Positions 23,955-27,181 of a DNA stretch of 53,899 nt are shown here, one piece after another; position 1 is the stretch's first letter, and every line of letters starts with the position of its first letter. The DNA is taken from the NCBI GenBank assembly GCA_016197225.1, contig JACPWC010000060.1, positions 1 to 53,899 of the forward strand, in the 5' to 3' direction. The notes beneath the pieces are model-generated. The model did not search any database. It had not been told where the DNA came from and saw nothing but the letters and a program-made list of their open reading frames with translations. The translations under genes and the position numbers were made by a program. Source of the stretch: Chloroflexota bacterium. Its GTDB lineage: Bacteria; Chloroflexota; Anaerolineae; Anaerolineales; VGOW01.

Positions 23955-24102
23955 ACTTATATGGCTCTACCAGATTGAGTGTGAAAATCCTTAACGCTAA
24001 GGCGCAAAGCCGCTAAGAAATAAACGGGTTTTTCTTTGTGCCCTGGCAACTTTGCGGCTTTGCGTTAAAAAATCCCGTTAAACCCGGAAGAGCCACTTGT
24101 AT
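23955..24102. mobile_element. 132-bp ISL3-like miniature element abutting the AAA+/release-factor gene
   Basis: The element spans 23963-24094. The left end is GGCTCTACCAGATTGAGTGT; the right end, reversed, is GGCTCTTCCGGGTTTAACGG. Flanks are ACTTATAT (23955-23962) and ACTTGTAT (24095-24102), an 8-bp target duplication with one later change. The two ends match those of the element at 11293 in swapped order, so the family has distinct, conserved left and right ends. The core is different: a CGCTAAGGCGCAAAGCCGCT / TTTGCGGCTTTGCG hairpin. Confidence 0.8.
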
Positions 24103-27100
24103 GAAACGAGGGTACGTCGAAGTAAAGCGCAAGCCAAACCTAATTCTTGAAGAGCTCCTCAAAAATCGCCCGCCGCCGGGCTACCCAACCGCCTTCACTC
24201 GTTTACTCAAACGCCTCAAAAAACTTCTCCGCAAAAGGAAACGTCCCAGACACTTTATGCTCCCACAACCCGCCCCGCTTCCTCCCGCCGACATCCGCAC
24301 TATGCTTGCCAGCTTCGCCGAGAACCTGACGGCCAAAGCCACCGCCGGCGGCCAGCCCGGCATTTACAACCGCGAGGCCGAAGTGAACCAGATTTTGCAG
24401 GCGCTGGCCTCGCCGCTCAAGGGCCGGGTGGCCATCGTAGGCCGGAGCCGGGCCGGCAAAACGGCAGTGGCCCAAATGGTGGCGGCTCGCATCGTGAGCG
24501 GGGAGTGTCCAGCGGAACTGGCAGGCAAGGAAGTGTGGCGCTTCACGCCCAGCAGTCTGCCCGGCCTTTCGGCGCGCGGCGCGTGGCAACTATATTTCGA
24601 TCAGCTCATCACCCAGTGGGCGGCTCACCCGGAGATCATCCTCTTCTTCGATCAGATCAACCGCGCCACCCGCCTCCCCGGAATCCAGGATGAAGAGGGC
24701 GACACCAACGTGGACGTTGCTACCGTGCTGGCCTCGGCCCTCAAGCGCCTCAACGGTTTGTGCCTGGCCGAGGCCGAAGAGAACGCCTGGCGGCGCTTCT
24801 CCGAAACCTACACCGACTACGGCCAGATTTTTCTGCCGGTGTACGTGGACGAATTTGACGTGGCGGCGACGCGGCGGGTGGTGCGTCGCGTGGCCGACGA
24901 CCTGGGCATCCTTCACGGGTTGGCCGTCACCGACGACGCCCTGGAGCAAGCCCTCGACCTCAGCCACCGCTACGCCCTCGACCGCGCCCAGCCCGGCAAG
25001 ACAATTGACCTTCTGCGCGACTCGCTGGCCGTGACCAAAGCCGACGGCGACGCCCAACTTACGGCCGAGCACGTCATCCAGCGCTTCGGCGAGCAGAGCG
25101 GCCTGCCGCGCATGTTGCTCGACGACACAGTGCCCTTCAACGAAGACGAAGTGCTGCGCTACTTCAAGAGCCGGGTGCTGGCCCAGGATCAGGCAGTGGA
25201 GGCGATTGTCCAATCGCTGAGTCTTCTGCGGGCGCGAGTCAACAACCCGTCGCGGCCTATGGGCGTCTTTCTCTTCCTCGGCCCCACCGGAGTCGGCAAG
25301 ACCGAGCTGGCCCGGACCCTGGCCGAGTATCTTTACGGCGAGCGCGAGCGCCTCGTCCGCTTCAACATGGGCGATTACGCCAACCCTTACCAGCACACCG
25401 AACTCTTCGGCAACCCGTACGCCGACCAAATGGTTCACCGTCGCGGCCAACTCACCAACCGCCTCGCCGGCAAAATGTTTTCGGTCATCGTCCTCGACGA
25501 GTTCGAGAAGGCCAACCCGCTCATCTATCAACGCTTTTTGCAGTTGTTCGACGAAGGCCTGCTCATCAACGGCAACGACGAGATCGTCAACCTGCGCAAC
25601 TCGATCTTCATCCTTACCTCCAACTTCGGCGCACAGTTGCTCTACCAGCCTAAGCTAGGCTTCAATCGCGGCGAAACCCCCGAGGCTCGCGAGACGCGCA
25701 TCCTTACCGAAACCGAGCGCTACTTCACGCCCGAGTTCATGAACCGCATTGACGCCGTCTGTATCTTTCACCCCCTCAACCGGGCCGTCATGGCCGACAT
25801 CGCCCGCCGCGAGATCGGCGACCTGCTCCTGCGCGAAGGCCTCACCCGCCGCAAGTTCGAGGCCGACATCGCCGACGAAGTCATCGAGCAGGTGGTGGCG
25901 CTTGGCTACAGCCCCTATTACGGCGCTCGTTATCTCAAACGGCAGATCGAAAAGACGATCACCTACCCGCTCGCCCGCGAGATCAACGCCCTCTCTTCGA
26001 CGATGGCCGGCGGGGCGATTCGACTCTACGTGAAGCATGGCCGGATCGTCTCGGCCTATCTTGCCCCCGATGCTGATCAAACGGTTCAGCCGACGCCTGC
26101 GGTGGAAGCGGCTTCTGCCGCCACCCTGGCCGAAATTCGTGAGGCCCTGCCGGTGCTGGCCGCGCGCGTGGAAGCGTTGGAAGAATTGCACGGCGTGGCC
26201 GAAGCCAGGGCCGAGCGCGAAGCGATCCTGTCCGAAATGGCCGACGTGAGCTTTTGGAACGATCAGGCCTCGGCCCGCCGCAAGCTGGACGCTTATCAAC
26301 GAGCGAGCAGCACCGTAGACTTGTTGAGCAGTCTGCGGCAGGCGTTGGACGGTTTGACCGAGTCGTTTTCCACATCGGCGGCTCCCCCGTCCGAGTCGGT
26401 GATGCGGCAGCACAAGTTCCTGCTGAATGAGCTGCCGCGAGTCGAGTTCACCTCCTGGCTCAGCGGCCCGCACGATCAATGCGGCGCCTATTTGCAGATC
26501 AGCATCAAATCAAAATTGAACGCGGCCCGGCAGTGGATCGTCTCGCTGGCGAAGATGTATCTGGGCTGGGCCAAGAGTCGAGGGCTGGCCGCCAGCGTGC
26601 TGGGCGAGGAGCAATCGCCCGATGGCCGGAACATGACGGTGACGCTCGTCGTCAGCGGCTACGGCGTGTTTGGGCTGTTGCAGGGCGAGACCGGGGCGCA
26701 CCGGCTGGTGCAGACGGTGAAGGCGGGCGGGCAGGAGAGTTTGCAGAGGTTGTCGGCCAGCGTGAGCGTTCTGCCGGAGTGGACGGACGACGAAATGCCG
26801 ACACCGCTTCCGCGCGTGGAGACCAACGTCAAAGAATTGAACCGTAATGGTCTCCTCGTGCCGCGCCTCACGGCTCAGGTGATGGCCCGCCACTTGAACA
26901 GCGAGGGCCGCCTAAGCTTTGCCAGCAACCTGCCGCCCGACGACCTGACCGCCGAGGCAACCCGAATCCTGCAAACCCTCATTCACTTCGAGAGCACCCA
27001 GAACGACACCCGCCCGGCCCCGCCCTCGGGCGGCATCGTGCGCTCGTACTTCCGAAACACCAAAGACAAGGGCGTGCAAGACCACCGCACCGGGCGGCGC

Positions 27101-27181
27101 ACGGTGAAGCTCAAGCAGATTCTCGATGGCGACTTGCAGGAGTTTTTAGATGAGGCGCTCAAACAGCGAAGCGGGAGTTGA
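24101..27181 (+). CDS. Clp/ClpB-type double AAA+ ATPase fused to a degenerate release-factor domain
   Basis: This 1026-residue protein has a basic head (KRLKKLLRKRKRPRHF near 35-50), AAA-1 with P-loop GRSRAGKT (114-121) and Walker B ending Asp184-Gln185, and AAA-2 with GPTGVGKT (394-401) and an intact Asp466-Glu467. Sensor ILTSNFGAQ and the ClpB-type YYGARYLKRQIEKT follow. From about 675 it reads as an RF1/RF2 protein: a PCRF-like helical domain, then GETGAHRLV (His867) and a C terminus (IVRSYF, KDKGVQDHRTG, ILDGDLQEF) like RF2. The SPF stop-reading motif is missing and the catalytic GGQ loop reads near NRNG (914-917). It may act on stalled ribosomes rather than terminate. The ATG overlaps the target duplication of the element upstream. 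Confidence 0.85.
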   Translation: MKRGYVEVKRKPNLILEELLKNRPPPGYPTAFTRLLKRLKKLLRKRKRPRHFMLPQPAPLPPADIRTMLASFAENLTAKATAGGQPGIYNREAEVNQILQALASPLKGRVAIVGRSRAGKTAVAQMVAARIVSGECPAELAGKEVWRFTPSSLPGLSARGAWQLYFDQLITQWAAHPEIILFFDQINRATRLPGIQDEEGDTNVDVATVLASALKRLNGLCLAEAEENAWRRFSETYTDYGQIFLPVYVDEFDVAATRRVVRRVADDLGILHGLAVTDDALEQALDLSHRYALDRAQPGKTIDLLRDSLAVTKADGDAQLTAEHVIQRFGEQSGLPRMLLDDTVPFNEDEVLRYFKSRVLAQDQAVEAIVQSLSLLRARVNNPSRPMGVFLFLGPTGVGKTELARTLAEYLYGERERLVRFNMGDYANPYQHTELFGNPYADQMVHRRGQLTNRLAGKMFSVIVLDEFEKANPLIYQRFLQLFDEGLLINGNDEIVNLRNSIFILTSNFGAQLLYQPKLGFNRGETPEARETRILTETERYFTPEFMNRIDAVCIFHPLNRAVMADIARREIGDLLLREGLTRRKFEADIADEVIEQVVALGYSPYYGARYLKRQIEKTITYPLAREINALSSTMAGGAIRLYVKHGRIVSAYLAPDADQTVQPTPAVEAASAATLAEIREALPVLAARVEALEELHGVAEARAEREAILSEMADVSFWNDQASARRKLDAYQRASSTVDLLSSLRQALDGLTESFSTSAAPPSESVMRQHKFLLNELPRVEFTSWLSGPHDQCGAYLQISIKSKLNAARQWIVSLAKMYLGWAKSRGLAASVLGEEQSPDGRNMTVTLVVSGYGVFGLLQGETGAHRLVQTVKAGGQESLQRLSASVSVLPEWTDDEMPTPLPRVETNVKELNRNGLLVPRLTAQVMARHLNSEGRLSFASNLPPDDLTAEATRILQTLIHFESTQNDTRPAPPSGGIVRSYFRNTKDKGVQDHRTGRRTVKLKQILDGDLQEFLDEALKQRSGS

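Follow-up and report, generated by a model that had tools for sequence, protein, structure and literature searches.

A Clp-type double AAA+ ATPase fused to a release factor 2-like domain without stop-reading or peptide-release sites

Contig JACPWC010000060.1 from a Chloroflexota bacterium (assembly GCA_016197225.1; 53,899 nucleotides, hereafter the window) encodes, at 24101-27181 on the forward strand, a protein that joins a double Clp-type AAA+ ATPase to a domain derived from release factor 2 (RF2). The gene is a single intact open reading frame of 1026 amino acids, with an ATG at 24101 and a stop codon that ends at 27181. Judging from its sequence, it belongs to a family of fusions between a Clp motor and an RF2 scaffold that has lost its functional sites. 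We favor the view that the protein is a Clp/Hsp100-derived, ATP-driven remodeling machine with an RF2-derived docking module, and we give this reading a probability of roughly 45%.

Standard annotation resources recognize both halves of the protein. In Pfam, it matches AAA_lid_9 (residues 255-318), AAA_2 (385-552, 1.6e-38), ClpB_D2-small (559-630, 2e-10), and PCRF (705-871, 1.7e-16, 61 bits versus a cut-off of 24), and the Pfam search gave no match to RF-1, the domain with the GGQ motif. In NCBIfam, prfB (1.1e-30) scores 106.8 bits as compared to 45.2 bits for prfA, which indicates that the tail is RF2-derived. The whole 345-residue tail aligns to RF2 (phmmer against PDB, residues 20-340, E = 1.5e-22). 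A structural model of this part matches RF2 (1gqe) in Foldseek (E = 4.8e-19, about 365 columns, template modeling score 0.42), but the model was built from a three-sequence alignment that includes two RF2 rows and its confidence is moderate (predicted local distance difference test [pLDDT] of 66), so the fold match is support and not proof. A previous sequence-only reading of this gene had proposed two Clp-like modules followed by a tail with the layout of RF1 or RF2 and an HRLV core. The searches bear this out and narrow the tail to RF2, and the fold search did not return a different fold for the C-terminal region.

To read out the functional sites of the tail, we aligned it to true RF2s of the same genus (Table 1). 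The tail retains the FW motif of domain 1, the HRLV core of domain 2, and a longer C-terminal pattern, RSY...DHRTG...LDG.L..FL. The position of the stop-reading SPF motif has VKA and the position of the catalytic GGQ motif has NGL; the sequence-only reading had also reported these two losses, and had placed the second one near NRNG. The tip of helix alpha5, which in RF2 reads the first base of the stop codon (PMC3418547), has been replaced as well. These codon-reading and release sites are gone in every member of the family that we examined, and in four Acidobacteriota members (G1117, G1130, G1149, and G1194), domain 3, which bears GGQ, is deleted outright. The letters GGQ do occur at residues 876-878 of the window protein, but they lie in domain 2, which is the wrong place for the motif, and they are not conserved in the family. 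In terms of what defines a class-I RF2, fold and homology are present, while SPF, the GG of the helix-alpha5 tip, and GGQ are absent. The RF2 part is thus predicted to keep its fold without a codon-reading or peptide-release site, and the loss of GGQ supports the earlier proposal that it cannot hydrolyze peptidyl-tRNA.

The motor half has the Clp/Hsp100 architecture, with two AAA+ modules (D1 and D2) and a ClpB-type D2-small domain. In a model of the full-length structure, D1-D2 has high confidence, and the closest solved structures (by Foldseek) are ClpC and ClpB. The Walker A, Walker B, sensor 1, arginine finger, and sensor 2 motifs of D2 are complete in all aligned members except G569, and by sequence D2 is the only complete ATPase of the motor. 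In the G569 fusion (L194:4181-7141), the catalytic residues of D2 are also lost (it has GKI and DD, and the arginine finger is gone); this copy has either decayed or become more derived.

In Clps, the GYVG pore loop provides the grip on the threaded substrate. The D2 pore-1 motif (glycine-aromatic-hydrophobic-glycine) is present in 0 of 19 family members versus 75 of 75 canonical Clps, which were retrieved alongside them as a comparison set. It is also present in none of 10 Acidobacteriota open reading frames. The window protein therefore lacks the aromatic-hydrophobic loop that a processive unfoldase has in D2. At the position of the ClpP-docking loop, nearly all members have xGF (LGF, IGF, or VGF), with WGF in Herpetosiphon-type members. 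The LGF of the window protein fits the tripeptide pattern of Clps that partner with ClpP ([LIVMP]G[FL]).

Ahead of D1, the N-domain of ClpA, ClpB, and ClpC is absent, and there is a short basic N-terminal tail in its place. The D1 Walker A motif is present in all aligned family members. The acidic pair of the D1 Walker B motif is DE in G002 and G003 only, most members have a degenerate form of the motif, and the D1 arginine-finger motif is missing from every full-length member. In the window protein, Walker B is DQ and the arginine finger is lost, so D1 does not have what hydrolysis requires. Given these residues, the D1 ring could bind ATP without hydrolyzing it and may be static or regulatory, which is in line with the earlier suspicion that the first P-loop binds but does not hydrolyze. 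The pore aromatic of D1 is lost in the window lineage and in most Chloroflexota members, and is retained in Acidobacteriota and G905-type members.

The same domain order is found in Chloroflexota, in Acidobacteriota, and in the deltaproteobacterial G905 lineage (all counts are from genome samples). In Chloroflexota, 24 genomes carry the fusion: nine of the 201 genomes of the order, six more elsewhere in the class, and nine in other classes. Herpetosiphon aurantiacus is one of these hosts, with its homolog at about 5,089,596-5,092,700 of G657:C1. The Acidobacteriota members are more distant; there, 9 of 297 genomes have a match above threshold, and the RF-like tail was confirmed by a hidden Markov model (HMM) in six of these. 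Three Acidobacteriota proteins (L255:3929-7279, L254:8236-11520, and L256:8129-11536) have an N-terminal hydrophobic segment that resembles a transmembrane helix, which suggests that this subgroup may be anchored to the membrane. In the G905 lineage, all five genomes have family matches, and in G905, G906, and G908 a single contig carries three genes in a cluster. The cluster at L080:236-10496, which was located by scanning genome contigs for a generic GVGKTE-type pattern (mostly this gave ordinary Clps), has three double-AAA+ genes, at least two of them with degenerate RF2-like tails. By HMM, the RF-like regions of L080a and L080c score 5e-10 and 5e-8, as compared to 0.29 for the best shuffled sequence with the same HMM, and L080b is not significant. 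The three clustered proteins of this lineage may form a hetero-oligomer. With the same query, we found no family member in 298 genomes of a Gemmatimonadota-type group, nor was there one in ten genomes from other phyla. The relatives are true fusions and not separate genes; the apparent separate RF frames in G050 and G038 just run to contig ends. The sequence-only reading had included neither this multi-phylum spread nor the [LIW]GF loop.

Between close relatives, the ratio of nonsynonymous to synonymous substitution rates (dN/dS) over the RF part ranges from 0.06 to 0.17 in those comparisons that are less saturated, and it is lower over D2. The RF part is under purifying selection. These ratios, along with the presence of the architecture in three phylum-level groups, put the pattern far beyond chance. 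We built two quick trees, both with long branches; the RF tree includes one stray open reading frame and lacks an RF1 outgroup. All fusions fall to one side of a branch in the D2 tree, and in the RF tree they are split from the RF2s, each with a Shimodaira-Hasegawa-like approximate likelihood ratio support of 99. In the D2 tree, the L080 trio is intermediate between ordinary Clps and the Chloroflexota fusions, and the window genome's own ClpC groups with Chloroflexota. A single ancient fusion is consistent with these trees but is not proven. We found no description of Clp-RF fusions in the open-licence literature, and a survey of RF evolution does not mention Clp, so the family looks uncharacterized in the literature that was open to search.

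If our reading is correct, then the complex would probably be a hexamer in which the D1 ring binds nucleotide without hydrolysis and the D2 ring is the motor, albeit a motor without the usual grip on a threaded chain. The RF2-derived domain would be the docking module that addresses this motor to its target, and ATP cycles in D2 would move or strain the partner that is bound to it, non-processively and not by threading. The target would most likely be a surface that the RF2 scaffold already binds (ribosomal or translation-factor), and translation complexes might then be remodeled or cleared without termination. There is a precedent for such a motor: Torsins are Clp/Hsp100 relatives without the aromatic pore loops that are critical for processive unfolding (PMC5425593). 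Torsins differ in that they have a single AAA+ domain, reside in the eukaryotic endoplasmic reticulum lumen, rely on a cofactor for the arginine finger, and have no RF domain. Overall, the analysis supports a Clp motor that carries an RF scaffold without release activity, and it disfavors the threading of nascent chains.

Several observations weigh against this reading. The putative docking on the ribosome is weakened by the loss of the helix-alpha5 tip, SPF, GGQ, and (in the four Acidobacteriota members) domain 3. The RF surfaces with known contacts to mRNA and the peptidyl-transferase centre have been lost, and the target may thus be something other than the ribosome. Any binding partner of the RF2-like domain is putative. 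The xGF loop, which is retained, would fit ClpP as a partner instead, and the G569 member lacks the D2 catalytic residues as well. Finally, the neighborhoods have no conserved gene across family members, and we rejected the idea of an operon partner.

In a more specific version, this pseudo-release factor would seat a non-threading Clp motor at the A site or the factor-binding region of ribosomes that are idle, stalled, or hibernating, and hydrolysis in D2 would pry them apart or hold them inactive with no codon reading or peptide release. We consider this version to be possible but doubtful. We are similarly tentative about the idea that the RF2-like domain has nothing to do with ribosomes and is a scaffold that binds protein or RNA, bringing a particular substrate or transcript to the Clp motor. 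All of the elements that contact the stop codon or the peptidyl-transferase centre are lost, four members do without domain 3, and, judging from sequence, the conserved RF residues look like the core of the fold. Also, PrfB3 from land-plant chloroplasts is an RF2 paralog that lost SPF and GGQ and became an mRNA-binding protein (PMC5897788). PrfB3 is likewise an RF2 paralog that was recruited to another job, but it is a stand-alone RNA-stabilizing protein with no AAA+ motor and is encoded by a eukaryotic nuclear gene. On the other hand, domain 1 persists under purifying selection, as does the domain 2/4 core, much as a ribosome-facing surface might, and no partner gene travels along with the fusion.

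It seems unlikely that the protein works with ClpP in the manner of ClpC and carries its own adaptor, with substrates chosen by the RF2-like domain and degraded by a ClpP that is docked at the xGF loop. IGF loops have a role in docking ClpP (PMC9035409), [LIW]GF is at the docking-loop position of ClpC in nearly all members, ClpP is present in six of six genomes tested, and the structurally nearest proteins are ClpCs, including ClpC-ClpP complexes (Foldseek). However, the pore loops needed to pass substrate to ClpP are missing from D2 in every member and from D1 in most Chloroflexota members, Herpetosiphon-type members have WGF, and the RF domain, which comes after D2, would occupy the side that faces ClpP. 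The tripeptide may simply be inherited.

The sequence-only reading had suggested that an unfoldase motor docked on the ribosome could pull on ribosomal proteins or on nascent chains that have stalled; we took this to mean pulling through the pore. A Clp motor and an RF2 scaffold in one chain, an intact D2 ATPase, and the aromatic D1 pore loop of Acidobacteriota and G905-type members would fit this proposal, but the complete absence of the D2 pore-1 motif from the 19 family members, the loss of the D1 pore aromatic in the window lineage, and the loss of the codon-reading and GGQ elements of A-site accommodation make it improbable. It is very improbable that the gene is decaying or chimeric and without function: the patchy distribution (9 of 201 genomes of the order, and absent in G001) and the degenerate G569 member hint at this, but the low dN/dS over the RF part, the even lower values over D2, and long intact frames with the same architecture in three phylum-level groups argue against it.

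As compared to known systems, the protein shares with ClpC, ClpA, and ClpB the order of D1 and D2, D2-small, the D2 Walker motifs, sensor 1, arginine finger, and sensor 2, and the ClpC-type xGF loop; it differs in the missing Clp N-domain, the lost D1 Walker B and arginine finger, the lost D2 GYVG, and the added RF2-like C-terminus of 350 amino acids. With RF2 (PrfB), it shares the whole fold, FW, HRLV, and the C-terminal RSY/DHRTG, and it differs in the three lost sites, the attached AAA+ motor, and the deletion of domain 3 in four Acidobacteriota members. Other relatives of release factors have altered or lost functions, such as PrfH (RFH), which keeps GGQ but has no domain 1 (PMC1586002), and Dom34/Pelota, whose catalytically inactive Dom34 acts on stalled ribosomes (PMC6514570). 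Neither carries a motor. Unlike the RF2-derived tail of the fusion, Dom34 is from the unrelated aeRF1 superfamily.

Table 1. Features of the fusion gene in the window (AF2, AlphaFold2).
Feature	Coordinates	Strand	Basis or remark
Whole gene: double Clp-type AAA+ ATPase and RF2-like domain, predicted release-dead	24101..27181	+	Upstream in-frame GTG at 24038
D1 AAA+ module with AAA lid	24284..25120	+	Pfam AAA_16/AAA_lid_9; NCBIfam ClpA from residue 65; AF2 D1 pLDDT mostly >80
D1 Walker A GRSRAGKT, retained	24440..24463	+	Alignment
D1 Walker B DQ, natural E-to-Q	24650..24655	+	Alignment
D2 AAA+ module with ClpB_D2-small	25163..26050	+	Pfam AAA_2 1.6e-38; Foldseek nearest ClpC/ClpB
D2 Walker A GPTGVGKT, intact	25280..25303	+	Alignment
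D2 pore-1 loop position, ADQM in place of canonical GYVG	25421..25432	+	Motif comparison
D2 Walker B VLDE, intact	25490..25501	+	Alignment
LGF in ClpP-docking loop position of ClpA/ClpC	25655..25663	+	Alignment
D2 sensor-2 GAR, intact	25922..25930	+	Alignment
RF2-like C-terminal region, all four RF domains recognizable	26111..27178	+	phmmer to RF2 1.5e-22; Foldseek 1gqe E 4.8e-19
RF domain 1 FW motif, retained in most relatives	26252..26257	+	Alignment
Helix-alpha5 tip, IKSKLNAARQW in place of RF2 GAGGxxAQDW	26501..26536	+	Alignment
HRLV core of RF domain 2 (residues 867-870), retained	26699..26710	+	Alignment
SPF position, VKA (V873-K874-A875)	26717..26725	+	Alignment
GGQ position, NGL (N916-G917-L918)	26846..26854	+	Alignment
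RF2 C-terminal signature RSY...DHRTG, retained	27041..27094	+	phmmer, alignment

The neighbors of the gene in the window are ordinary, and the gene stands alone. The window genome also encodes RF1, ClpP, two ClpC-type proteins, and a fragment of RF2 that is cut by a contig end (the RF2 match in G000 is at 78211-78501, at the end of contig C95 [78505]). We rejected the idea that the fusion replaces RF2: G001, G002, and G003, of the same genus, keep an intact, normal RF2, so the fusion is an addition. A role as a defense system was also rejected, as the PADLOC matches are to generic AAA and cover D2 only.

In G1117, an Acidobacteriota genome (L254:8236-19997), the Clp-RF gene is directly upstream of TssK, DotU/TssL, IcmF/TssM, and ImpA/TssA, on the same strand; this type VI secretion neighborhood was not seen at the other Acidobacteriota members that were checked. 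Near some Acidobacteriota members and the G908 member are proteins (L251:16905-19208, L226:17364-19628, and L259:16404-18779) whose N-termini we presume to resemble the HicB antitoxin fold; the one from G908 is itself a family match.

An origin from a mobile element or phage was rejected as well: among the annotated matches listed, the plasmid and phage collections show only ordinary RF1 and RF2, and the viral contigs that we searched have no Clp-RF fusion. One viral contig (IMGVR_UViG_3300025687_004659, L210:1977-2513) encodes a 178-residue mini-RF2 in which GAGGTEAQDW and SPY are intact, domain 1 is absent, and the GGQ domain is deleted; such a protein might act as a decoy that reads stop codons and blocks release. 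Another viral contig, of 121 kb, encodes a full-length RF2 with both SPF and GGQ (IMGVR_UViG_3300031555_003080, L230:1620-2702).

This family joins two well-studied bacterial machines, and each half lacks its textbook activity yet is under selection. The cultured type strain Herpetosiphon aurantiacus is among the members, which makes biochemistry feasible. If the ribosome is the target, then the fusion would be a new bacterial ribosome-remodeling ATPase and a previously undescribed class of machine. If the target is not ribosomal, then the RF2 scaffold would have been reused as a docking module in bacteria, in parallel to PrfB3 in plants.
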